Shown: in pieces, positions 16,098 through 58,008 of the stretch | Layout of the letters: each line of letters begins with the position of its first letter | How positions within the stretch are numbered: the stretch's first letter is position 1 | Origin: Saprospiraceae bacterium | GTDB taxonomy: Bacteria; Bacteroidota; Bacteroidia; Chitinophagales; Saprospiraceae | DNA: 64,000 nucleotides | Direction of reading: 5' to 3' | Assembly: GCA_019187225.1 (NCBI GenBank) | Contig: JABAQQ010000005.1 | Location: 124,001 to 188,000 of the forward strand | The notes under the pieces: generated by a model | The model's database searches: none | The model's input: only the letters and a program-made list of their open reading frames with translations | What the model was told of the DNA's origin: nothing | Position numbers and translations under genes: made by a program

Positions 16098-16442
16098 TTG
16101 ATCATGGAAAAAGAAAACGTCATCACCCACACCTACGACCTGCTGCGTTACCTCGTGCCGCAATTGGTCAAATTCCCGCGCCACCAAAAATTCGTGCTCG
16201 CCGACCGCATCCAAAACCTGCTGACTGACATTCTGCAACAGCTTGTCAAATCCTACTTTGCCCGTCCCGAGATTAAAAAGCCCATTCTCCAACAGGTTAA
16301 CCTCGACCTGGAGGTGCTGCGTTACCTCGTCCGGCTGGCCAAAGACCTGCATTGCCTCGACCTGCGACGTTACGAGTATGTGCAGGAAAAAATCAACAAC
16401 ATCGGCGCACAAGTCGGCGCCTGGATCAAAAGCCTGCCATGA
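16098..16442 (+). CDS. avd: DGR accessory variability determinant (Avd)
   Basis: This 114-aa, all-helical protein ([20 protein letters not shown]; basic residues along the helices) has the length and helix pattern of Avd, the pentameric four-helix-bundle cofactor that DGR reverse transcriptases need for template copying. Its stop overlaps the RT start by four bases (ATGA, 16439-16442), typical of translational coupling. The assignment rests on fold-like features plus certain DGR context (RT, TR and VR adjacent). Confidence 0.85.
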
Positions 16443-17488
16443 AAACACACAAAAACCTATGGCCTGCCATCACTGATTTTCAGAACCTGTTGTTGGCTGC
16501 GCAAAATGCGCAAAAAGGCAAGCGTTTCCAGCCAAACGTGAGTCGCTTCAACATCGAACTGGAACCCAACCTGTTCGAACTGAAAGCCGAACTCGAAGCC
16601 TGCGCCTACCGCCCCGGCCCTTACCGCGCTTTCCACATCCTCGACCCCAAGCCCCGCATGATCAGCGCGGCCCCATACCGCGACCGCGTGGTGCACCATG
16701 CCCTTTGCAATGTCATCGCGCCCATGCTGGAGAAAAGCATGATCGCCGACACTTACGCCAACCGGGTAGGGAAAGGCACACATGTAGCCGCCAACCGTTA
16801 CCAGGCATATTGCAGACAGTACCCCTTCGTGCTCAAATGCGACATCAAAAAATTCTTCCCGTCCATAGATCATGAAATCCTCAAACGCGAACTGCGCCGC
16901 AAAATCGGCTGCCGCAAAACCCTGTGGCTCATCGACCTGATCATAGACAACAGCAACCCGCAGGAGGAGCACATCGCCCACTTCCCCGGCGACGACCTTT
17001 TCACACCCCTGCAACGCCGGCGCGGATTACCCATCGGCAACCTCACCAGCCAACTCTGGGGCAATTTCTACCTCAGCGGCCTCGACCACTTCGTAAAGGA
17101 AACACTTCGACTGCCGTACATCCGCTATGTAGACGACTTCGTCATTTTCAGCCATTCCAAAGAAGAACTGTGGGAAGTGAAAAAAGCCATCGAAGTGTTC
17201 CTGCAAGACTTCCGACTGCTGCTCCACGAGCGCAAAAGCCGCATCTATCGCACTTCGGAGGGCGTCACTTTCCTCGGTTTCCGCATTTTCCCCGGTTTTC
17301 GCCTGCTGCCCTCCGAAAACGTGCGCCGCTTCCGCAAGCGTACACGCCGCCGCATCGCCGCTTATTTTAAAGGAAAAATCGCCCTCGACGAATTTCACAG
17401 GGGCCTGCGCGGCTGGGAAGGCCACGCCCTGCAAGCCGATACCTGGCGGCTGCGCCGCAAACTGATCCGGGAATTTTTTGGAAAGTAA
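16439..17488 (+). CDS. Diversity-generating retroelement reverse transcriptase
   Basis: The start at 16439 overlaps the avd stop and gives 349 aa; a longer in-frame start at 16352 would overlap avd by 90 bp and is rejected. Catalytic aspartates are visible in KCDIKKFF (Asp135) and YVDDF (residues 230-234). The motif PIGNLTSQ (198-205) has the IGxxxSQ form specific to DGR enzymes rather than the QGxxxSP of group II intron and retroviral RTs. A basic C-terminal thumb follows. It copies the TR RNA at 17972-18089 with errors at adenines and delivers the cDNA to VR. The gene runs opposite to the TR strand. Confidence 0.96.
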
Positions 17489-17531
17489 CCCGGAACGGTA
17501 CCGCCAGGCCTTGGCTGCACATATTTTTTTT

Positions 17532-17731
17532 GTGTACGCTACGTGATCTACGTTGTCATGCTGTAAGCACCCGTCCGATCTACGCCCCCTCTACGTTGTC
17601 ATGCTGTAAGCACCCGTCCGATCTACGCCCCCTCTACGTTGTCATGCTGTAAGCACCCGTCCGATCTACGCGGGTGATCCGTAGATCGGACGGGTGCTTA
17701 CAGCATGACAACGTAGATCACGTAACGTACA
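17532..17731. repeat. Three 43-bp direct repeats plus an inverted copy between RT and TR
   Basis: Units begin at 17548, 17591 and 17634 (period 43 bp) and each contains CTACGTTGTCATGCTGTAAG and CACCCGTCCGATCTACG. An inverted copy spans 17681-17716, forming a near-perfect hairpin of about 37 bp with the third unit. Outer flanks 17532-17547 and 17717-17731 are also nearly complementary. Nothing here is coding. Confidence 0.9.
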
Positions 17732-17971
17732 CAAAATGCGTTGGGAAGTCTTGACAGTAGCGTTCCGGGCTACAAAAAGCCCCGGCGCGGCGTTCGATTT
17801 GCGCTACCAGCCGCACCGGGGCGCTCTACCTGTTCGGTCTCACCCGCCCCATTCGCCGGGGACAAGGCACAGACCCGGCAGCTGCCCTGGGCTTCTTCTC
17901 CTTGCCGGGGACGACCGTGGGCGGCCCCGCGCTGTAAGGTTGTACACATCTGGCGCTCCTGCGAAGAAGTT

Positions 17972-18089
17972 CTGGCGCAACGGAAACCGTTGTTGTTGTT
18001 CCTGTTGTTCCGTTCATTCCTGTTGCGGTTGGCCGGGCGACAATTGTTATCATTGTTGTTCCACGAACCGCCGCGCAACACGGCGTATT
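17972..18089 (-). other. DGR template repeat (TR)
   Basis: Read on the minus strand, 118 bp encode a virtual FGE C-terminus (VLRGGSW, then an Asn-rich run, then GFRCAR) in which most core codons are AAC or AAT. It differs from VR2 (18408-18525) at 23 positions between the TGG and GGT codons by hand count, every one a TR adenine. Flanking sequence is identical. The 3' end differs from VR just after GCGCCAG, as expected for a mutagenic-homing boundary. No complete gene surrounds it. Confidence 0.95.
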
Positions 18090-18407
18090 GGGTCAGCTCC
18101 CGCTGCAAATATCGCTTTTTTAAAAAAAATTTTCGGCTGCGCCGAAAGAAAAAGAAAAAAGGTAAAAGCTCAGGCAGGGGCAGCGCCCCGAAAGATTTGT
18201 AGTGATTTATGCACAAAATCCACTGTGGAGGGGCAGCGCCCCGAAACATATTCCGGGGCGCTGCCCCTCCACGAAATAATATCGATCTTTCTGCTACAAA
18301 TTTTTCGGGGCGCTGCCCCTGCCTAAGTTTTTACGAAAAAAGAAAAAAAGAGCAAAGGGTAAAAGGGTAAAAGCGCAAAGGGTTACCGCCCCCCCGCCGA
18401 GGCAGCC
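18090..18407. repeat. DGR spacer copy 2, with nested palindromes
   Basis: This 318-bp spacer between TR and VR2 is almost identical to 18526-18844. It contains a perfect 18-bp stem (18226-18243 with 18254-18271) nested inside an outer stem of about 22 bp (18172-18193 with 18303-18324), plus a small TTTCGGC/GCCGAAA hairpin near 18131. GGGGCAGCGCCCC is the shared core. Such structures downstream of VR are known to aid retrohoming in other DGRs; that role is inferred here. Confidence 0.9.
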
Positions 18408-18525
18408 CTGGCGCAACGGAAACCGACGATGTAGCCCCAGTAGTTCCGCCCAACCCCGCAGCGGAAGGCCGGGCGACAAGAGTAAGCACTGATGTTCCAC
18501 GAACCGCCGCGCAACACGGCGTATT
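18408..18525 (-). other. Second variable repeat (VR2) without a host gene
   Basis: On the minus strand this 118-bp copy reads VLRGGSWNISAYSCRPAFRC, then a diversified segment ending GFRCARAA and a stop. It has the same length as TR, and all core differences are at TR adenines (for example AAC to TGC, GAA to GGG). Nothing upstream of it on the minus strand encodes an FGE domain, because spacer 18526-18844 intervenes. It is either a stored alternative C-terminus or a relic of duplication. Confidence 0.93.
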
Positions 18526-18844
18526 GGGTCAGCTCCCGCTGCAAATATCGCTTTTTTAAAAAAAATTTTCGGCTGCGCCGAAAGAAAAAGAAAAAAGGTA
18601 AAAGCTCAGGCAGGGGCAGCGCCCCGAAAGATTTGTAGTGATTTATGCACAAAATCCACTGTGGAGGGGCAGCGCCCCGAAACATATTCCGGGGCGCTGC
18701 CCCTCCACGAAATAATATCGATCTTTCTGCTACAAATTTTTCGGGGCGCTGCCCCTGCCTAAGTTTTTACGAAAAAAGAAAAAAAGAGCAAAGGGTAAAA
18801 GGGTAAAAGTACCAAAGGGTTACTGCCCCCCCGCAGAGGCAGCC
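18526..18844. repeat. DGR spacer copy 1, directly after the target gene
   Basis: This 319-bp spacer starts inside the last codons of the target gene on the left side of VR1 and repeats 18090-18407 with only a few differences near its ends. The nested palindrome is conserved, offset by 436-437 bp. The target stop (18820-18822) lies within its VR-proximal edge. Confidence 0.9.
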
Positions 18845-21800
18845 CTGGCGCAACGGAAACCGACGACGTCGCTGAACCCGATGGACCGAGCATACCCGTA
18901 GCGGACGGCCGGGCGACAAACGTCAACATAGAAGAACCACGAACCGCCGCGCAACACGGCGTATTCTCCATTGGCGGGGCCGGTCGGATTGACGGCCGGC
19001 GCACTTCGAAATTGCTCGTAATACTTTTCGCCGTACCAGTCGCTGCACCACTCCCACACGTTGCCGCTCATGTCGAAGAGGCCGAGTTCGTTGGCTTTTT
19101 TTTGCCGCACCGGGTGGGTCGTGCTGTTCGAGTTGCCATCATACCAACCCACCTCGTCGAGGTTATCGGAGCCGCTGTACCGGAATCCCCGGCCTTGCGC
19201 GCCGCCCCTCGCCGCGTATTCCCATTCGGCCTCGGTAGGCAGGCGCAGGCCGTAGAAGCGGGCGTATTCGTCGGCGCCGTACCAGGTCACGTACACCACC
19301 GGGTGTTGTTCCTTGCCGGGAGCGGGCCGCCAACGCCCGTTGGCGTCGTTTTGCACTCCCCAATCATCCTCGAATATCATCGTCTGTCCCCGGTAAGCCC
19401 CGTCCTTTACCTTATCGCTGCCGTATTCGTTGAGAAAGGCAGCGTACTGGGTGTTCGTCACTTCCGTGCGGTCTATGTAGAAATCGCCGACCGTCACGTC
19501 GTGGGGCGGTTTTTCGTCGTCGGAGCAGTTGCCATCGCGTTTTTGATCGAGGCAGCCCATGGTAAAGGTTCCGCCGCGCACGGGGGCCATGTCTTCGCCG
19601 GGGCGGCGGCCGGGGACGTAGGCAGTGGCAGTGGCAGTGGCAGTAGCAGTAGCAGTGGCAGGGTCCGTGGCGGTCGGAGTCAAACTACTGCCACTGCTAC
19701 TGCCACTGCCACTGCTACTGCCACTGCCTCCTGTCAGATAGTTCCAGGCAGCGGGGGCATCGGTTTGGGTCACGAGGGTGAGGGTAAAGGGTCGCTGTGC
19801 GGCGGTATAAGCTTTGTCGTAAACGGCCTGGAAGGCGTTCCAGTCGCCAATGCGCGGCAGCACGATGGCGCCGGCCGACCAATTGCCGACTTTAACAGGC
19901 GAGTTTGTGCCCGACACAGCGTGAAAGTGCAAACCGAAGGCATTGCCGGTGGAGGACGGGTCGCCCGCGTCGATGCCGAACGATTTGTTTATGTCGCGGT
20001 AAATGGTGATGGCGCCGGTTTGGCGTAGGGCCGGCGAGGTTCTGTCGGTGCCGGGCCGGTGTTGGCCGGGTGTGTAGGCATCGGGATATTGGCCGGGCGC
20101 GATCATAGCTGCGCCGCCGCGGTTGTCCGCGCTCTGCACAGCGGCTACGCCGGGCATGGTGGTGGCTGTATATACGCCGCTTTGCCAGACGCCGGCGGCA
20201 TCGCGGTACAGCACTACGACGTAGTCCTCCCAGGCGTCGGGCGTCCGGTCCCGCGTTTTCCGGAAGCCGATGATGTTGGGGTAGTTTCCCTCAAAAACAT
20301 AGCCTTTTTGCGTGAATACATCGCGAAAGACTTGCACGAGGTAGCGGGTGCGGTCGGAGGCGTAGCGGTCGGTATCGGCGAACGACGAATCGGCGCACCA
20401 GGCCAAGCCTGCACGCACGGCGGTCAGCATGGAATCGGTGTCGAAGGATTTTTGGAAAATGGTGCAGGGAATGGATTTGGCCAGCCGGTATCCTGGGTTT
20501 TCGACAGGCACTTTTGCAAACACAGAATCGGCCTGGCGGGAAAAGGTAACGCTGCGGTTGTACAAAGCGGTAGCCACATAGTGCTCGTAGGCTGCGCGGG
20601 CGGTATCGCCGGGCGGAATTTCAGCACGGGTAGTGCCGGTAAGCGAATCAACAAACGGCAAAACGCGCAATACATCTATGGGGAATAACGAACGACGAAT
20701 CGTATCGCAAGCCAGCCGTTCGCGATACAACACCCGGTCTGCTGCATTTTGCAGGCAAAGTGTCTGCCCCTGGTATTGCACTTGTTCGCCGGCGCAGGCG
20801 GGCGGTTGCGGCTGCCAGAGCAGGGCGCCGATGCCTGCGGCCAGCAGGAGCGCACCGGCGCGCAGCGCGTCGCGCCAGAAGGGCGTCCAGCCCAGGGCGG
20901 GAAATCCGCCGGGATGTACCTCGCGGCGGAGCTGGGGCGGCACCAGCACGTCGAGCAGGGTGCGGCGGCGCAGGGCTTTGAGGGTGGTGACGTCGGGGCG
21001 GGTGCGACCGATGTATTTTTTCACTTCTTCGGCGTGGCGGGCGCGTTCGGCGGGGTCGGCGGCACTCATCCATCCCAGCAGGGCGAGGTGCATGCGGTAG
21101 CCCGGAGCGGCCACACTTTTGGGATCGGGCGCTTTTTGAGCGGCCAGCAGGCGGTAGAGGGCAGCCTGAATGCGGCGCAGGAGGCCGGGGCTGTCCTGTT
21201 CGAGCCATTCGAGCAGGGCGAGGCGGTCGTGATCGGGGATTCGGCCCTGCACAAACCATTCGAGGCGGGTGAGCTGGCGGAGGTCTTCGGAACTGATTTC
21301 GGATTGCGGATTGCGGATTGTGGATTGTGGATTGTCCCGGGTGCCCGGGACAGGTAGCCGGCTGAAAAGGCGGCGGAGCCGCGCCATCCCGGAACGGAAG
21401 GCCAGATGCAGAGCACGCCGCCACGACGTCGCGCCGGAGCCCGGGGTGGCGCTACGCAGCCACCTGCCTATCCATAAAGTGAGATCGTAGTGGATGCTGG
21501 GCCAAACGGCGCAGGCGGCCATCCAACGGATCTGGGCATCGGAGTAGTATTCGCGGAGCGTGGCGATGAGCGGGCCGCCGAGGGCGACGGCGGGTTCGCC
21601 GGCGGGATGGCCGCTCTGCCCGGCAGCAGCCGCAAGGTCGGCGAGGGGGAACAGGCCGGTTTCGACGTGTTGGTCGAGTTCGGCGAGGAAGTCGAGGCTG
21701 TCTATGAGGGCGGGCAGCACGGTGAAACGTTCGGCGAGGCGGCGCTCGGCGTGGCGCCAGGCGGCTGGCGGCACGGGAGTGAACAGGGCGCGTTGTTTCC

Positions 21801-23226
21801 AGGCGTCGAGGGTTTGCGTCCAGGGGGCTAATCTGCCGCCGCTGAGCAGGCGGTAGCCGTCGCTGAGCAGGATGAGGCGGGCGGAGGGGTAGCGATAGAT
21901 CAGGTCGCGGATGCCGATACCGGCGGGGTGGTCGTCGTTCCAGCAGAGGCGGGGGTCGCCGCTGAAGAAGAAGCGTTCGAGCAGCACTTCCTGTTTTTGG
22001 AAGGCGGCGGCGATGGCGTCGAACAGGGCGGCACGGTGGTCGTTGGCGTCCTGCCGGTCAATGAGCAGCAGGTATTCGGGCGGGCGGGTGAGTTCCCGGT
22101 AGCGAAAATCGGGCAGGCCGCCGCGTTCGATGGTGGCTTCGATGGTGCGCGGCAGGTCGAGGCGGCGGGAGTCGGCGGCTTCGCGGCGGCGCAGTCGGTT
22201 GGCGATGGCGTAAAAGGCGTCGCTCAGTTCCGGTGCGCGCTCGTCGTCGAGCCGGATGTCCCAGACGTAGGGCGGCTGGTCGGCGCGTTCGCGGGCGGCA
22301 GTAAGGGGCCGGCGGCGTTCGCGCCATTGCAGCCACCCATAGAGCGCTCCGGCTAACAGGAGCCACAAAGCGATTTTCAGGGGCCATTGGTAGCGGGTGA
22401 GCCACTGTTGCAGGGCGGAATGTTCCTGCAAACGCCGTGTGAGCAGGAGGCTGTCGCGGGCGGCGCGGTCGTCGGGAAGGTACCGGAGTTGGGCAAAGGA
22501 AGTATCGGGCGGTCCGGGCGGAGGCGGCGACGCCCCGCCTTGCTCTATCCGGGTCACGAGTTGCCACAGGCGGGTTTTGCCCGATTGGTTCTCCAACCGG
22601 ATGCGCAAGGTGTCGCTGCCGGGACTGTCGCGCGCCTGCACGAGCACGCGCCCGCTGTCGCGCAGAGAGTAGCCGGCTAAGGCGGTGGCGCGCAGGGTAT
22701 CGGCGCCGTCGTCGAAACGGGCGGAGACCGGCATGTCGAAATCGCGCAACACGGTGCTGTCGGGTGTGATAATGGTGTTGTTGCCGGCGACCACCCGCAC
22801 TTCGGAGGAGACTGTTTCCGGCGCTGGCGTTTGCCGGCAGTATCGCCAGCAGAGCAATGTGGCGACCAGCGCGAGCGATAGGGCGGCCAGCAAGATCCAC
22901 GGCAGGCGCGCGGGCGGGGCCCCGCTTCCGCCGTTGCCGTCCGGGCCGGGTTGCGGTGTTTTTTTTATCTCCGGCGGCTCCAGGTCGTATTCTTCTATGC
23001 GCCGCTGCCATTCTGTCAGCGTTTGCCCGAAAATTTCGCGGAATTGTTGCTGCTCGCCGGCATTGGTTGCGGTGATGGCGCAAAGGGCGTCGCGCAGTTG
23101 CCGGTCGGGCACATCGCCGGGCAATGCGTCGAGCAGTTGCCGCGCGCGCAAATGCCAGTCCACCCCCAGAGGGAAACCCGCGCTTTCGAGCGCGTCGGCG
23201 AGGATAGGGAGCAGGAGCGGGCGCAT
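18820..23226 (-). CDS. DGR target: membrane vWA-like protein with C-terminal FGE/C-lectin domain
   Basis: The 1468-aa protein has an N-terminal region (1-85) like that of CoxE-type vWA proteins, three hydrophobic segments (about 109-127, 281-299, 787-804), and a vWA-like alpha/beta domain between segments two and three (EYLLLIDRQDAND at 384-396, RLILLSDGYRL at 450-460) with a degenerate metal site. A poorly conserved region and low-complexity Gly/Ser and Ala/Thr linkers follow. The FGE-sulfatase domain starts near 1213 (VRGGTFTMGC, RLPTEAEWEYAARGG, GNVWEWCSDWY). Residues from about 1421 to 1463 are VR1. Three segments would put vWA in the cytoplasm with MoxR (encoded 15 bp upstream) and the variable domain outside; this topology is inferred. 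Confidence 0.88.
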   Translation of the reverse strand: MRPLLLPILADALESAGFPLGVDWHLRARQLLDALPGDVPDRQLRDALCAITATNAGEQQQFREIFGQTLTEWQRRIEEYDLEPPEIKKTPQPGPDGNGGSGAPPARLPWILLAALSLALVATLLCWRYCRQTPAPETVSSEVRVVAGNNTIITPDSTVLRDFDMPVSARFDDGADTLRATALAGYSLRDSGRVLVQARDSPGSDTLRIRLENQSGKTRLWQLVTRIEQGGASPPPPGPPDTSFAQLRYLPDDRAARDSLLLTRRLQEHSALQQWLTRYQWPLKIALWLLLAGALYGWLQWRERRRPLTAARERADQPPYVWDIRLDDERAPELSDAFYAIANRLRRREAADSRRLDLPRTIEATIERGGLPDFRYRELTRPPEYLLLIDRQDANDHRAALFDAIAAAFQKQEVLLERFFFSGDPRLCWNDDHPAGIGIRDLIYRYPSARLILLSDGYRLLSGGRLAPWTQTLDAWKQRALFTPVPPAAWRHAERRLAERFTVLPALIDSLDFLAELDQHVETGLFPLADLAAAAGQSGHPAGEPAVALGGPLIATLREYYSDAQIRWMAACAVWPSIHYDLTLWIGRWLRSATPGSGATSWRRALHLAFRSGMARLRRLFSRLPVPGTRDNPQSTIRNPQSEISSEDLRQLTRLEWFVQGRIPDHDRLALLEWLEQDSPGLLRRIQAALYRLLAAQKAPDPKSVAAPGYRMHLALLGWMSAADPAERARHAEEVKKYIGRTRPDVTTLKALRRRTLLDVLVPPQLRREVHPGGFPALGWTPFWRDALRAGALLLAAGIGALLWQPQPPACAGEQVQYQGQTLCLQNAADRVLYRERLACDTIRRSLFPIDVLRVLPFVDSLTGTTRAEIPPGDTARAAYEHYVATALYNRSVTFSRQADSVFAKVPVENPGYRLAKSIPCTIFQKSFDTDSMLTAVRAGLAWCADSSFADTDRYASDRTRYLVQVFRDVFTQKGYVFEGNYPNIIGFRKTRDRTPDAWEDYVVVLYRDAAGVWQSGVYTATTMPGVAAVQSADNRGGAAMIAPGQYPDAYTPGQHRPGTDRTSPALRQTGAITIYRDINKSFGIDAGDPSSTGNAFGLHFHAVSGTNSPVKVGNWSAGAIVLPRIGDWNAFQAVYDKAYTAAQRPFTLTLVTQTDAPAAWNYLTGGSGSSSGSGSSSGSSLTPTATDPATATATATATATAYVPGRRPGEDMAPVRGGTFTMGCLDQKRDGNCSDDEKPPHDVTVGDFYIDRTEVTNTQYAAFLNEYGSDKVKDGAYRGQTMIFEDDWGVQNDANGRWRPAPGKEQHPVVYVTWYGADEYARFYGLRLPTEAEWEYAARGGAQGRGFRYSGSDNLDEVGWYDGNSNSTTHPVRQKKANELGLFDMSGNVWEWCSDWYGEKYYEQFRSAPAVNPTGPANGEYAVLRGGSWFFYVDVCRPAVRYGYARSIGFSDVVGFRCARAASAGGQ
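18845..18965 (-). other. Variable repeat VR1 at the 3' end of the target gene
   Basis: This 121-bp segment encodes the ligand-facing loop of the FGE/C-lectin fold (RGGSWFFYVDVC, then RPAVRYGYARSIGF). Compared with TR, all substitutions before the terminal AAC run fall on template adenines (at least 20). VR1 has one extra codon in that run (five codons against four AAC in TR), so it was not copied from the present TR without slippage. Confidence 0.95.
19621..19728. repeat. Inverted CAGTGG hexamer arrays coding linkers in the DGR target
   Basis: 19621-19660 carries CAGTGG/CAGTAG units and 19684-19728 the reverse complement. On the coding strand the right array encodes Gly-Ser repeats and the left one Ala-Thr repeats, just before the FGE domain. 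The unit length of six preserves frame, so copy-number change would alter the tether length. The same hexamer occurs at 27458, 33083 and 33502. Confidence 0.9.
21301..21352. repeat. GGATTGC/GGATTGT heptamer array and palindrome inside the DGR target gene
   Basis: Five 7-bp units (GGATTGC or GGATTGT) are followed by the palindrome TGTCCCGGG-tg-CCCGGGACA. They encode a short Asn-Pro-Gln-Ser-rich stretch around residues 625-645, between the vWA-like region and the third membrane segment, where insertion is tolerated. Confidence 0.8.
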
Positions 23227-23240
23227 TTGCGATCTACGGT

Positions 23241-24218
23241 TTATTCTTCATCGGGATAAAGCACGCGCCGCAGCGCGTCGTGGTCTTCTTTGGTTTTGGC
23301 GAGCACGGTGTAGGAACTCAGCAATTTTTTCTGTTCGTCGCCGCCGAGGTCTTCGAGTCGGGCGAGGCGCCGGGGGTCAAAGCCGATCTGGGGCAGCAAT
23401 TCGGCCCAGAAGATGAGTTCGGCAGTAGCGGGTTTTTTGCGGAGTTTGACGAATTCGGGATTGCGCAGCAGGTTGAAGTGGGCGATGATCGCCTCGAGGT
23501 CGCCGTCGGAGAAATTTTGGGTTTTGGCTTTCAGAATTTCGAGCAGGGCCGGCGGACCGGGAAATTCGATATTGTAATAGACCACGCGGCGCAGGAAGGC
23601 ATCGGGCAGGTTTTTTTCGGAGTTGGAAGTCAGCACGATGATCGGGCGCTGATCGGCTGTGAGCGCGGGCTGGTCGGCGGCGGGGAATTTTTTGCGTATT
23701 TCCGGCACGTCGAAGCGCAGCTGGTCGATGGCTGCCAGCACGTCGTTGGGCAGGTCGCGCGGGGCTTTGTCTATTTCGTCTATCAGCACCACACGAGGTT
23801 TGTGGGCGGGGTCGTTCAGCGTGTCGCGGATTGCTTTGCCGAGGGCTTCGTAATGGATGAACAATTCTTCTATTTCATCGGGAGTGAGCAGTTTTTTCTG
23901 GGTTTGGGTGTACTGGAAATGCCCCAGGGCATCGTAGCGGTAGAAGAGGTCTTTGGCCGAAGAAGTAGTTTGGGCATTGAACTCGATGGGCTTGCCGAGG
24001 TCGAAGAAGCGGGCGATGTGCCAGGCGAGTTGGGTTTTACCGGTGCCGGGTTCGCCGGTCACGAGCAGGGGTTTGCCGAGGGCGAGCGCCACGTTCACGG
24101 CGGTCACCAAGCCGTCGGAAGGGATATAGGTAGCGGCATCGTCGGCGCGGTTGTTGTCGGGGCGACGGAGCGGAGGGGCGGCTTCGGGGATCGTTTTGGC
24201 GTAGCGGTTGAAAGACAT
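23241..24218 (-). CDS. MoxR-type AAA+ ATPase
   Basis: The 325-aa protein has Walker A GEPGTGKT (55-62), Walker B VVLIDEIDKAPRD (143-155), a sensor-1 region (IVLTSNSEKNLPDAFLRR) and the alpha-helical insert of the MoxR family. MoxR proteins remodel partners that carry vWA domains. Here the partner is the downstream gene, 15 bp away, which has a vWA-like domain and the DGR-variable FGE. The EAD-bearing gene ends 20 bp upstream, so the three form one operon. Confidence 0.9.
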   Translation of the reverse strand: MSFNRYAKTIPEAAPPLRRPDNNRADDAATYIPSDGLVTAVNVALALGKPLLVTGEPGTGKTQLAWHIARFFDLGKPIEFNAQTTSSAKDLFYRYDALGHFQYTQTQKKLLTPDEIEELFIHYEALGKAIRDTLNDPAHKPRVVLIDEIDKAPRDLPNDVLAAIDQLRFDVPEIRKKFPAADQPALTADQRPIIVLTSNSEKNLPDAFLRRVVYYNIEFPGPPALLEILKAKTQNFSDGDLEAIIAHFNLLRNPEFVKLRKKPATAELIFWAELLPQIGFDPRRLARLEDLGGDEQKKLLSSYTVLAKTKEDHDALRRVLYPDEE

Positions 24219-24237: not shown

Positions 24238-25449
24238 TTACGATTGGGCTTGTTCCTGTGCGACCTGACGTACCATTTTTTGCAGTTCCTGCACGTCGCG
24301 CATATCGTAAGGGCCGTTTTTACGGTAGCGGGCGGGATTTGTTTCCTCGATGTACCGGTCGAACTGATCGAGGATTTCGCGGTAGTTGGGGGCATGGCCG
24401 TCCTGGGCGATGCGGTGCAGCCACTTTTCCACTTCGTCCTGCGGGACGGGATGCAGGAGCGCTATCGGTTGTGCCGGTGTACGGGCTGACTCGCCGGGCT
24501 CCTCGCCGGGTATTTTAAGGCTGATGGCGGTCACGATATCGCCTGTTCGCCGGGCAAAGGCTTCTAATTGCTCCCGGATGGCCACCTGGCGGGAAGTCAG
24601 CGCCTCGGGTTTATCGAAATTTTTGATATAGACTACAAGGAAAAAGGCGAACAGGCGGCGGCTTTTTCCGCACAGGTTGCGCTGCCAGGCGAGTATTTCA
24701 TCGAGGCATTCGGGCAGAGAGTCGTCCCAGTTCGTTTCGTGCAGCGCAAAAGCGAAAGCGGCGTGAGAGTAGTTTGACCTGAAAAAATCGGCGTTGGCGC
24801 GCGAAAAATCGGATTTGAACGTATCCAGCGTTTCTTCCGCGCCGCCGCTTTCCACGGTCAAACCTTGTATCAGTATCCGCTCGGGGCCGTTGGGCTTGAA
24901 ATACACTTGCGCGTCGGGGTCGCTTTCCAATTTTTTCACCTCTTCGCGGATGAGGCGCTCAGCGAAGCTGTGCGGCATTTGCTCCGGGCAAGCCTGCACG
25001 AGGAAAAACTGAAGGGGGGCGCCAATTTTCTGACGGCGGGCGCTGCTGTACGTCTTTTTGGCGTCCACGCGATCGCAGTTGACTAAGTACAGGGGTTCTG
25101 TCGCTTTGTCAAGATCGATGGGCAACCTGCGCAGCGCCTGTATCAGCGGGATGTCTTCGTCGGGCGGACGCAGATCGGCTTCGGTCAGCGCGTCAATCAG
25201 GACCAACAAACCTTCGCGGGTGCGGTTGGCAACGATATCGAATTCACCCCTGTATTCGATGGTACCCTGAATGACGAATGCTTTTTTGGCGTTGAGATAT
25301 TTGGCTTTGAGCAGCGCCAGATCATTGAAAATGCTGGTTCTACTGCGACGCAGCCGGCGTTCCAATTCATCCAGCACAAATTCGACGCCTTGTTCGGCAA
25401 GACATTTTTTCAATTCGTATTGGGTATCGCGAAGACAGGAAGTCGGCAT
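24238..25449 (-). CDS. EAD11-like adaptor fused to an iSTAND-like domain
   Basis: I set the start at the ATG at 25449 (MPTSCLRDTQYELKKCLAEQ), giving 403 aa; the frame open further upstream runs through a repeat region. Residues 1-90 fit the pattern of effector-associated domain 11: helices ending with NDLALLKAKYLNAKKAFVIQG and EFDIVANRTREGLLVLIDAL, as also seen at the N-terminus of the gene at 55284. Residues 100-290 (PLYLVNCDRVD, FFLVQACPEQMPHSFAERLI) resemble inactive-STAND regions of conflict systems. EADs act as homotypic adaptors to effectors. The assignments come from memory of the families and need a profile search. Confidence 0.6.
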   Translation of the reverse strand: MPTSCLRDTQYELKKCLAEQGVEFVLDELERRLRRSRTSIFNDLALLKAKYLNAKKAFVIQGTIEYRGEFDIVANRTREGLLVLIDALTEADLRPPDEDIPLIQALRRLPIDLDKATEPLYLVNCDRVDAKKTYSSARRQKIGAPLQFFLVQACPEQMPHSFAERLIREEVKKLESDPDAQVYFKPNGPERILIQGLTVESGGAEETLDTFKSDFSRANADFFRSNYSHAAFAFALHETNWDDSLPECLDEILAWQRNLCGKSRRLFAFFLVVYIKNFDKPEALTSRQVAIREQLEAFARRTGDIVTAISLKIPGEEPGESARTPAQPIALLHPVPQDEVEKWLHRIAQDGHAPNYREILDQFDRYIEETNPARYRKNGPYDMRDVQELQKMVRQVAQEQAQS

Positions 25450-25549
25450 TTTTGATTTAGTGGGCTGTAAATCAAGACTGATGCAAACATACAAGGTTTT
25501 TGATATTAAACCTTCGGCGGGGCGTTTTTCGTTAAGCATTTGAGCACAT

Positions 25550-25620
25550 AAACACATAGGCACATAGACCACATAGCAATAAAAAACAACAAACTATGTG
25601 AACTATGTGCCTATGTGTTT
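25550..25620. repeat. Inverted CACATAG-type repeat between divergent genes
   Basis: Arms AAACACATAGGCACATAG (25550-25567) and its exact complement (25603-25620) enclose 35 nt that carry further CACATAG / CTATGTG units. It lies upstream of both the EAD operon (minus) and the ABC-F gene (plus), so it could influence either promoter. Confidence 0.85.
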
Positions 25621-55283: not shown

Positions 55284-57353
55284 ATGCCGCTCGCCCAACC
55301 TTTGCCCGACCTTCGCCGCCAGTTGCAGGAAATCCTCGCGGAAGACCTTGCCGCCGCGCTCAACGCGCTCAAGGAACTCCTGCCCGAAGGCTCGGAAAAG
55401 CACCGCACCGTGCTGGAACTGCGCGCCCGCTTCAACGAAGCCAACAAGCAAAATTTTCGCGGCGTCATCTCCCCCGAGCAATTGCAACTCATTTATAATC
55501 AGATCCGCAGCGCCGTTTTCGACCTGCTCGAATCGCTCGAAGAGGGCGATTTTGAAGTGGCTGTGAAAGAGGGGGGAGCCGCCTCCGCTAAAGCAACGGC
55601 GGCTAAACATGGCAGCGTCCTCTACCGTGTGCCCCACCGGATGCCGCTGCGCAAACCCACCATCTGCACCGTGCGCGTCGCCCTCGACGAAGAGGCCATC
55701 CTCGAAGACATCGTGCTCGACGCGGAGGTGCGCCTCCGCCCGCGCGTAGAGGTGTCGGACATGATGAAGGCCGAACTGCTCGACCCCGAAGGAGATGTGT
55801 TCGCCATTCGCCCCCTGAGCGAGGCCGAACAACTGGTGCGCGACACGGGCTATACCCAATGGCTGTTCAGCGTGACGCCGCGCGTGGAAGGAGAGCACCA
55901 GTTGCTCGTCAAAGTCTCCATGATGGAGTTCAACGAGAAAATCGGCAAGTACGTCCCCCGCGAAGTATCCATTTTGGAAACCGTCACCATCGTCACCGAG
56001 ACGGCCGTCGCCGACAGCGACGAAACGCCGCTCAAATCCACCGGCGATCGTTTCACGCTCGGCCCCGATGCGTCGCGCGGTATCGGCGAAGAGCCGCCGG
56101 CAGCAGTCGTGCCGTCCGCGCCTGCGCTCAATATCCCCCGGCCATCTACCATTTACACGCCGCCTCAGCCGTCCACCGTCGGCCGTCCCTCTTCAGTGCC
56201 GCGCGGCCTGCGCACCGTCGCTTTTTTCCTTGCTTTTCTCCTGGTTGGAAGTACCGCAACATGGGCTTTCACGCCACCACCCACGCGTGACTGGTGGGTC
56301 GTCCGCCTGAAAGACAGCGCCGAAGCCTACGCCGGTTATATTGAAAAATACAAAGACACCGACGCAACGCAGCATTTGGAAAAGGCTTATTTCCGGAAAG
56401 CCGACAAAACCGATGCCCTGGCAGATTTGCGCGAATACCAGCGCGAATTCCCGCAGGGACAATTTCGCGAGCAAGTGACGGAAAAAGTAGTTATGCTGGA
56501 AATCAAGACTTTAAACGACATCCGGCAACAACCCGACGCAGGAAAAATACTCCGGTTCGCCCAGGATTTCCCTGAAAGCGAACGCCTGCCCGCGCTCAGA
56601 GACGTGGTCACTGACCGCGCCGACCTGCTGCCCGCACTTGAAAAAGCTTATGTCGCCTCCATCCGGGCACAGGCCAGCCCCCGAAAAGTGGAGGCCTTTC
56701 TGAACGATTTTCCGAAAAGCGAGCGCCTGCCCGAAGTGGCTCAGGTTTTGGAAGCCGAGCCCGAAGTGCGCCGTCAGGTGCAGCCGAAATTAGACAGCAT
56801 CATTGTCCGGAAAGTGGAAAATGCCGCCAGCGCCGCCGAAGTAAAAGCCATTTTGCCCGTACTCGAAAGCGCGGGCAGCAGCGAAAGCGCGAAAAAAGTA
56901 GAGCAGGTGGTAGCCCAAAAGCCGCAACTTAAAAAACAAGTGCTGCCGCAGGTACAGCAGGCCGTCAGGCGGGTGCAGCAACGCGAAGAAATAAACCGCC
57001 AACGCACCGCCGAAGAAGCGGCTGAAAAAGCCCGCCTCGAAGAACTCCGCCGCCGCGCCCGGGATGAAAAAGACGCCGCCCAACGCGCCCGTTTGGAAAA
57101 AGAAGCCGCCGAAGAAGCCGAACGCCAGCGCCTGAAAAAAGAAAAACGCAAGCGCATCGAAGCCGAAGCCCGCCGGGATACCGACGGCGACGGCGTACCT
57201 GACAAAGACGACAAATGCCCCAACGAAAAAGGCGACGCCGCCAACAACGGCTGCCCGCCGCCCAAAAGCAGAAAATCCGGTCTCGAAATGGTGCCCGTAA
57301 AAGGCGGCACCTTCACGATGGGATGCCAGAACGGCCGCGACAAAGACTGTTAA
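55284..57353 (+). CDS. EAD11-like, membrane-anchored protein with truncated FGE domain
   Basis: The 689-aa frame starts with an EAD11-like adaptor (residues 12-88; FRGVISPEQLQLIYNQIRSAVFDLLESL). A 15-residue insert (about 95-110) comes from a palindromic repeat, then a beta-sandwich-like region (115-240), a Pro-rich linker, a membrane segment (about 311-329), a helical repeat region and a charged coiled coil. A thrombospondin-3-like calcium loop (DTDGDGVPDKDDKCPNEKGD) precedes the first FGE strand (VKGGTFTMGCQNGRDKDC), and the frame stops. The rest of the FGE follows in another frame (57353-57976), so the gene is frameshifted, or the assembly has an error. Confidence 0.75.
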   Translation: MPLAQPLPDLRRQLQEILAEDLAAALNALKELLPEGSEKHRTVLELRARFNEANKQNFRGVISPEQLQLIYNQIRSAVFDLLESLEEGDFEVAVKEGGAASAKATAAKHGSVLYRVPHRMPLRKPTICTVRVALDEEAILEDIVLDAEVRLRPRVEVSDMMKAELLDPEGDVFAIRPLSEAEQLVRDTGYTQWLFSVTPRVEGEHQLLVKVSMMEFNEKIGKYVPREVSILETVTIVTETAVADSDETPLKSTGDRFTLGPDASRGIGEEPPAAVVPSAPALNIPRPSTIYTPPQPSTVGRPSSVPRGLRTVAFFLAFLLVGSTATWAFTPPPTRDWWVVRLKDSAEAYAGYIEKYKDTDATQHLEKAYFRKADKTDALADLREYQREFPQGQFREQVTEKVVMLEIKTLNDIRQQPDAGKILRFAQDFPESERLPALRDVVTDRADLLPALEKAYVASIRAQASPRKVEAFLNDFPKSERLPEVAQVLEAEPEVRRQVQPKLDSIIVRKVENAASAAEVKAILPVLESAGSSESAKKVEQVVAQKPQLKKQVLPQVQQAVRRVQQREEINRQRTAEEAAEKARLEELRRRARDEKDAAQRARLEKEAAEEAERQRLKKEKRKRIEAEARRDTDGDGVPDKDDKCPNEKGDAANNGCPPPKSRKSGLEMVPVKGGTFTMGCQNGRDKDC
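55569..55613. repeat. In-frame palindromic insert, second coding copy
   Basis: The segment starts GAGGGGGGAGCC and ends GCTAAACATGGC. It aligns along its length with 9826-9873 in the unrelated lipoprotein gene and encodes a similar peptide (EGGAASAKATAAKHG against EGGAPASAGATAGKHG). It falls exactly in the linker between the EAD and the next domain. Confidence 0.6.
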
Positions 57354-57976
57354 AGCCGGCCCATACCGTCACCCTCACCGGCTTCCTGATCGGCAAATAC
57401 GAAGTGACCCAGGCCGACTGGCGCGAAGTGATGGGCGCAGACCCGCCCGAACTCTACAACAAAGGCTGCGACGACTGCCCGGTGGAAAATGTCTCCTGGA
57501 ACGAGATGCAGGAATTTATCAAGACCCTGAACAAGGTGACAACCGGCCGTAAAACCTACCGCCTGCCCACCGAAGCCGAGTGGGAATACGCCGCCCGCGG
57601 CGGCCCGAAAAGCGAAGGATATATTTACTCCGGCAGCAATGAGGCGGGCAAAGTGGCCTGGTATCACGACAATTACAAAACCGGCAACACTTTCGGCGCC
57701 CGGAAAAGCACCCGCCCCGTCGGGACGAAAGTTCCCAACGAACTGGGGCTGCACGACATGAGCGGGAATGTGTACGAATGGTGCAGCGACTGGAAGGGCG
57801 AATATCCGGCAGACGCGCAAGTGAACCCAACTGGCCCGAAATCAGGCTCCAACCGCATCCTTCGCGGCGGGTCGTGGAACTACAGCCCGCAGTACGTACG
57901 GGCAGCGCTCCGCTACTACCTCGCGCCCGGCGATCGCTACTACAGTATCGGTTTCCGCCTTGCCAGGACGAATTAA
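57353..57976 (+). pseudogene. C-terminal FGE-sulfatase domain, out of frame with its N-terminal part
   Basis: This 207-codon stretch has no start of its own. It reads KPAHTVTLTGFLIGKYEVTQ, RLPTEAEWEYAARGG, GNVYEWCSDWKG and ends RILRGGSWNYSPQYVRAALR...IGFRLARTN. It continues the FGE that breaks at 57353. By comparison with the DGR target (CSDDEKPPH) about 10 bases are missing at the junction. The last 27 residues align to TR without gaps, and many Asn positions are now Tyr, Ser, Leu or Gly with codons ending in C, but non-adenine sites also differ, so it is not a current target of this TR. Confidence 0.75.
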
Positions 57977-58008
57977 CCCTTTGACCTTTTTACCCTTTTA
58001 CACTTTGG

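Follow-up and report, generated by a model that had tools for sequence, protein, structure and literature searches.

The window analyzed here, a stretch of 64,000 nucleotides from a Saprospiraceae bacterium (assembly GCA_019187225.1, contig JABAQQ010000005.1, positions 124,001 to 188,000 of the forward strand), carries a complete cellular diversity-generating retroelement (DGR), an element of a kind that is known as such. The locus holds the accessory variability determinant gene avd, an intact reverse transcriptase (RT) gene, one template repeat (TR) and two variable repeats (VR1 and VR2), of which VR2 alone sits in a gene (Table 1). In profile searches, the avd product exceeds the curated cut-offs of PF22296 and NF033474, and the RT exceeds that of RVT_1. 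The RT frame contains the motifs IGNLTSQ and YVDD, and the DGR-type motif has been described as (I/V/L)GxxxSQ and YxDD (PMC3521204). Its closest solved chain is 8ub7_A (E 3.1e-53). The initial annotation had claimed a complete DGR whose RT carries the signatures IGxxxSQ and YVDD and overlaps avd by ATGA; the overlap lies at 16439-16442, the 349 codons hold no internal stop that would point to an inactivated RT, and the claim is upheld. It had missed the antisense orientation of the TR, the orphan state of VR1, the MoxR/iSTAND-type locus around the target and an array of short repeats in the VR flanks.

The differences between template and variable repeats are confined to adenines. The TR has 37 adenines among its 118 bases, and in a gapped alignment VR1 differs from it at 23 of 118 positions, all at template adenines (12 A to T, 9 A to G, 2 A to C), while the 26 mismatches of VR2 are likewise all at template adenines (15 A to T, 9 A to G, 2 A to C). 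The probability of such confinement by chance is 3.5e-15 for VR1 and 9.2e-18 for VR2. The base-by-base comparison that the initial annotation had suggested thus bears out its adenine bias; the substitutions at template C, G or T that it named as contrary evidence occur at 0 of 81 positions, and its counts (at least 20 for VR1, 23 for VR2) need correction. VR2 is one codon longer than the TR owing to a 3-nt insertion in the AAC-rich part, and an ungapped pass gives false mismatches past that point because of it. The statement that the placement of TR adenines avoids stop codons was also correct, as the in-frame codons that bear them (NNC, NNT, GNN and NGG) cannot be converted into stops. In the comparison of the initiation of mutagenic homing sites (IMH and IMH*), the final 18 nt of the TR and the VRs are identical and divergence begins directly after CGCCAG. 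Besides the three local copies, a search of the own genome for remote VRs of this TR found three partial matches that resemble the TR (C16, C21 and C4). The partial matches were rejected as VRs, as they differ at C, G and T too, and the one on C21 is the TR of a second DGR in the genome. An A-tolerant TR search over the collected loci, using the best alignment per locus, found no additional VR.

Table 1. Features of the DGR locus in the window, in order of position.
Feature	Position	Strand	Evidence
avd, accessory variability determinant	16104..16442 (ATG) or from TTG 16098	+	PF22296 E 2.6e-20, NF033474 E 3.9e-30
DGR reverse transcriptase, 349 aa, intact	16439..17488	+	RVT_1 E 7.2e-25
Conserved structured region 3' of TR, ends in terminator-like hairpin	17772..17971	-	RNAalifold, 4 relatives
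Template repeat (TR)	17972..18089	-	Antisense to RT; repeat alignment
GCA-triloop hairpin behind VR1, 260 nt from VR1 3' end	18131..18147	-	Hairpin scan
MITE-like palindromic repeat, copy 1	18162..18334		At least 99 genome matches listed
Repeat array behind VR1, CTTTTACCCTTTTACCCTTT	18354..18373	-	20-mer search
VR1, orphan variable repeat, in no recognizable gene	18408..18525	-	23/23 mismatches at adenine
GCA-triloop hairpin behind VR2, 261 nt from VR2 3' end	18567..18583	-	Hairpin scan
MITE-like palindromic repeat, copy 2	18598..18770		Within the 284-nt identity with copy 1
Repeat array behind VR2, 10 nt past target stop	18790..18809	-	20-mer search
DGR target protein, 1468 aa, C-terminal FGE-sulfatase/C-type-lectin domain	18820..23226	-	PF03781 E 1.2e-59, residues 1211-1461
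VR2, coding variable repeat	18845..18965	-	26/26 mismatches at adenine; one 3-nt insertion
Rossmann-like region, possibly vWA (target residues 330-560)	21547..22239	-	Conserved in L152, L183, L151
MoxR-like AAA+ ATPase	23241..24218	-	AAA_5 E 8.8e-12
EAD11/iSTAND-like protein	24238..25572	-	EAD11 22.0 bits (cut-off 26), iSTAND 18.3 bits (cut-off 24), both below

Behind both VRs, 9-10 nt past the stop, stands the 20-mer CTTTTACCCTTTTACCCTTT, part of an array of tandem units of about 8 nt (window unit CTTTTACC). At no more than one mismatch, the 20-mer has two sites in the 7.18-Mb draft genome (73 contigs), after VR1 and VR2, and 14 sites in 10 of the 42 genus genomes, compared with none for the reversed control. 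All 14 are found 9-17 nt beyond a stop codon, that of VR1 or of an FGE/VR-type gene. Because the 20-mer derives from the window, two of these sites are there by construction; four more are at loci already seen and eight are blind. Among 395 genomes of the phylum, an exact 17-mer occurs solely at the two sites in the window genome. Of 25 FGE matches in the own genome, 18 were read for an array score, which reached 17 of 17 behind VR2, 13 behind each of two targets on C21, and 14 and 11 behind two genes with no known TR; of the rest, one scored 10, eleven scored 4-7 and one had no flank. A score of at least 11 was found behind 15 of 16 Saprospiraceae VRs, as opposed to 0 of 16 TR rows (one TR being entered twice) and 0.7% of random stretches, a null drawn from the same loci with the arrays included. 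Elsewhere in the window, the end of an FGE-type gene (57215-57976, plus strand) is followed by an array at 57977-58006. No TR for it was found in the genome, and by eye it looks like a broken former DGR target whose domain starts in another upstream frame (55284-57353).

The array extends across phyla. Our survey covers 95 loci with 102 TR-VR pairs, two of which (the second rows of L156 and L159) appear spurious; 24 of 117 scanned loci yielded no pair. In Patescibacteria, the units read CTTGAACC or CTTTGACC. Among 76 other loci, mostly of Patescibacteria and with viral contigs included, CTTGAA occurs in 28 VR flanks versus 2 TR flanks, CTTTGA in 23 versus 2, and TGAACC in 18 versus 0. Over the 80 nt after the VR, autocorrelation peaks at lag 8, with z values of 9.3 (15 Saprospiraceae loci), 13.0 (63 other cellular loci) and 9.7 (10 cyanobacterial VRs), whereas the values after the TR are -1.3, -2.9 and 0.4. 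The signal is weak (2.7) in nine named phage or phage-plasmid loci, and in nine gut-phage loci lag 8 gives 1.0 while lags 6, 9 and 12 give values between 3.3 and 3.8. Two or more CTT in register (7-9 nt) follow the VR in 11/15 Saprospiraceae, 35/63 other cellular and 7/10 cyanobacterial loci, and follow the TR in 0, 1 and 0, respectively; the corresponding VR counts are 3/13 for IMG/VR contigs and 0/9 for named phages. The CTT unit and its spacing were picked after inspection, and the lag test is independent of the unit but uses the same loci. L054 and L055, which share contigs with L153 and L181, were left out of the CTT, tree, lag, hairpin and score counts, the cyanobacterial set excludes L232, and one reversed, partial or spurious pair was dropped from each of the named records L227, L228, L231 and L239.

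As a control, the 3' ends of long frames were read for the same CTT register, which was present in 7/105, 14/332 and 5/24; comparison with the VR flanks by eye identified 7/7, 12/14 and 5/5 of these matches as DGR targets themselves. At least one in-register CTT pair follows the VR in 60 of 69 cases with the TR near downstream and in 22 of 25 with the TR elsewhere, the nine gut-phage loci being left out of this count. The array also follows targets that lack an FGE-like end (11 of 13 ends by eye, L057 and L136 being FGE-like). It has a median of four units and begins at a median of 13 nt past the end of TR/VR identity (69 loci). On the RT tree (104 rows, without L139, L145, L146 and L147), 76 rows are labelled as having the array, defined as at least one CTT pair and no GRNA tetraloop hairpin; these make up 55 of 65 rows in a mostly Patescibacterial clade and 21 of 25, with two more labelled both, in a clade that joins Saprospiraceae and cyanobacteria with Chlorobi and Bdellovibrionota. 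The label changes 14 times over the tree versus 24.9 times for shuffled labels, and none of 500 shuffles was as low. Pairing of the array with its own TR RNA found no support, the longest complementary run averaging 7.36 nt versus 7.26 nt for other loci (69 loci). By eye, the phage flanks of L238, L237 and L236 contain one or two loose 8-nt units of the CTGATT-CTTGAG type before their hairpin, and from these flanks the array may be older than the split between phage and cellular elements. We found no description of the array in a literature search that largely left out subscription journals, so that one may exist in print.

A hairpin with a GNA triloop follows the array in all 15 Saprospiraceae VR flanks and is found in 0 of 15 TR flanks, with 0.1 expected from shuffled sequences. 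It is also present in 8 of 63 other cellular loci and in three of four IMG/VR loci (L134-L137). Such VR hairpins are of a known kind, since the DGR of Bordetella phage BPP-1/BMP-1 requires a hairpin 3' of its VR (Guo 2011, PMC3240598) and GRA triloops have been reported in Nanoarchaeota (Paul 2015, PMC4372165). The window hairpin lies 260 nt from its VR, beyond a palindromic repeat resembling a miniature inverted-repeat transposable element (MITE), while in all 15 Saprospiraceae relatives the distance is 47-111 nt; insertion of the repeat has pushed it away. We had treated hairpin and array as mutually exclusive types, an idea that was dropped as both occur in all 15 Saprospiraceae loci; the earlier tree labels counted GRNA tetraloops and not GNA triloops. 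It is also possible that the GNA-triloop hairpin is a plain terminator, as a T run comes after it. On the TR side, the conserved structured region has 52 pairs, 13 of which have changed on both sides in one sequence or more, and is probably the 3' part of the TR RNA. No Rfam family reached threshold in the window except one tRNA. Between RT and TR, at 17528-17736, three 43-nt tandem copies and one inverted copy form a long imperfect palindrome.

From this distribution, array and GNA-triloop hairpin are most likely part of a cis-acting signal that would mark a VR, as opposed to a TR, as the target, and we propose the array as a putative target-recognition element. The alternative that fares best, although we regard it as unlikely, is that the array belongs to the transcription or mRNA 3' ends of target genes, as a boxA-like element or part of an unusual terminator, and is unrelated to homing. 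In favour of this alternative, the array is invariably on the sense strand of the 3' untranslated stretch and, in 15 of 15 Saprospiraceae loci, directly precedes the hairpin; the core of boxA is CTTTAAC. However, TR flanks also end in terminator-like hairpins (four relatives) and have no array, and other 3' ends do not carry it either, nearly all control matches being DGR targets.

VR1 is an orphan. Its upstream flank is identical to that of the TR over 284 nt, its downstream flank resembles that of VR2, and the order on the minus strand is gene-VR2-flank-spacer-VR1-flank-spacer-TR, which is the order that crossing-over between TR and VR gives. The relatives L151, L152 and L153 have a single gene-VR-flank-TR unit, and none of the other 101 of the 102 surveyed pairs has a similar orphan, their match reaching at most 69 nt beyond the upstream edge of the scan window. 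Because the spacer contains the genome-wide MITE-like repeat (its 99 matches listed include both strands and its own copies), the tandem duplication postdates the insertion of the repeat. VR1 and VR2 differ at 12 of the 18 sites that are changed in both (ungapped register). The 24 bases at 18374-18397 show several differences between the copies, whereas the adjoining 284 nt are identical, a contrast for which we offer no explanation. The best explanation of this arrangement is that VR1 arose by recent tandem duplication through TR/VR recombination. Three histories would then fit: homing into VR1 after the duplication, homing into VR2 with VR1 as a fossil, or recombination of two alleles. VR1 may still be reached by homing or may be the fossil of an earlier VR2 allele.

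It is improbable that VR1 serves as a silent donor cassette, with recombination over the shared 29-nt 5' block deleting one unit and VR1 replacing VR2 as a stored alternative sensor tip. VR1 is in register and free of stops until a stop and array that match those of VR2, and the loss of one 436-440-nt unit would leave gene-VR1-array-TR; the lack of a second case among the 102 pairs argues against it. We give slightly less weight still to an assembly artefact made from strain variants. The genome is a draft and tandem repeats are often misassembled, but the assembly would have had to jump at a junction with only some 33 nt in common, and VR1 carries flank bases between 18374 and 18397 that are peculiar to it. 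We consider it very improbable that the 100-aa frame covering VR1 (18383-18685) is expressed as a second target: the frame is open, starts with ATG and has the VR peptide pattern of VR2, but it begins within the repeat spacer, MITE-like repeat and hairpin make up its first half, a corresponding frame is open over the TR as well, and it has no lectin body. The duplication remains our preferred account. VR1 and TR can be set side by side as a natural pair, in which core and upstream flank are common to both and the 3' flanks differ. Since core and upstream flank are shared, the determinant of target versus template would lie 3'.

VR2 falls within the FGE domain of the target protein, and VR1 lies outside any such gene. 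The mean pLDDT of the model of target residues 330-560 is 65.8. The adjacent MoxR-like ATPase has a neighbour counterpart with 67% identity in the relative L152, where the homologue of the EAD11/iSTAND-like protein scores 35.8 bits for EAD11, above the cut-off, and remains below it for iSTAND; the gene order with both neighbours is kept. This target layout, beside MoxR and an EAD11/iSTAND-like protein, is known from "ternary conflict systems". The iSTAND-MoxR-vWA type of these has a MoxR-like AAA+ ATPase in the operon, an iSTAND protein with an N-terminal effector-associated domain and a vWA domain fused to the FGE/FGS domain; of these parts the window has the MoxR-like ATPase and possible counterparts of the other two. 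Because of this setting, the target protein is most likely a diversified sensor resembling immune sensors.

Several known systems resemble the locus in part. The BPP-1/BMP-1 DGR shares avd, RT, TR, a VR at the 3' end of a lectin-type target and adenine-only change (PMC3240598); it has a phage tail target, a GRNA tetraloop hairpin (L238) and no array by the CTT measure, whereas the window has a TR antisense to RT, a triloop hairpin and an array between VR and hairpin. Cyanobacterial plasmid DGRs (Microcystis, Acaryochloris, Fischerella, Nostoc and Anabaena) share FGE targets and an array after the VR, and their RTs, which are the closest listed in annotated plasmids, are 51-55% identical to the window RT. 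Several of these RTs are beside MoxR and FGE genes, and the targets lie partly next to MoxR and trypsin/VMAP proteins. They differ in having VMAP, not an iSTAND-like third protein, where tested (L228), and an orphan VR with TR flank was not seen among them. DGR-linked ternary conflict systems (Kaur 2020, PMC7159879; Dore 2024, PMC10907252) share lectin sensors that are varied by a DGR and encoded next to MoxR ATPases, genomes with several DGRs, and MITE-like repeats in DGR loci; the accessible parts of both papers do not mention an orphan VR with TR flank or a 3' array. The TR is opposite to the RT in 10 of the 102 pairs (the window with two, L054 and L153 on one contig, L151, L152, L156, L157, L159 and L183). 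This orientation is uncommon yet known, as TR and RT are on differing strands in one of the DiGReF groups (group 4, compared with the window in this feature only; PMC3521204) and inverted cassettes have been listed (Yan 2019, PMC6642488). The DGR itself is of a known kind, and array and orphan VR set it apart as a variant.

RT matches at E 1e-60 or better occur in 11 of the 42 genus genomes, the own one included. The second DGR of the genome, on C21 (L039, 3296-12338), has its own avd, RT (40% identical) and TR, two targets with FGE ends and N-termini that appear STAND- and TIR-like by eye, and the array behind both VRs. Two further bAvd-like genes were found (G000:C28:18873-19172 and C31:2898-3215), one of which passes the cut-off; no RT match was found beside either.

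We therefore arrive at a joint reading that we hold with good confidence: a complete DGR would diversify the VR2 sensor, VR1 would be an orphan duplicate, and the array would be part of the target signal. TR RNA would be made from the minus strand with its conserved structured 3' region, and RT and Avd would copy this adenine-rich RNA into mutated cDNA. The cDNA would enter VR2 at its 3' end and replace it at the 3' end of the target gene, varying the ligand-binding face of the FGE/C-type-lectin domain, while array and hairpin would mark the VR 3' end and tell VR from TR. The early steps, TR RNA and cDNA made by RT and Avd, rest on established knowledge of DGRs. At this locus the sequence shows intact genes, adenine-only differences and the layout of the locus, from which we infer TR transcription, homing, the sensor role and the marking by array and hairpin. 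A 2021 survey terms cDNA entry into the VR "a yet-undefined homing mechanism" (PMC8144416), and the bench-tested 3' element that we found in the literature is the hairpin of one phage (PMC3240598).

Some observations weigh against this reading. The evidence at the locus comes from assembled sequence, from which homing into VR1 is a possibility only; 10 of the 63 other cellular loci have no in-register CTT pair; and no TR-VR pair was found in the seven loci that hold the eight blind sites of the 20-mer. A loose 15-mer matches 66 of 298 family genomes with a reversed control that is about as full by eye, and GFR..stop lies closely upstream in 7 of 30 such loci; for both reasons, the loose 15-mer alone is no marker. 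A fold search gave no specific match to vWA in the target, vWA chains standing among unrelated folds of equal Z.

The array follows VRs and hardly ever TRs in Bacteroidota, Cyanobacteria, Chlorobi, Bdellovibrionota and Patescibacteria. It is conceivable, if somewhat short of an even prospect, that cellular DGRs mark their targets by an 8-nt array bound by the homing machinery; such a cross-phylum code would separate target from template and predict remote and dead targets, and an orphan VR may still be rewritten under it. One array unit per subunit of an Avd ring would be a guess. The array offers a concrete part for deletion or transplant in a laboratory DGR, and it could aid in finding remote targets.

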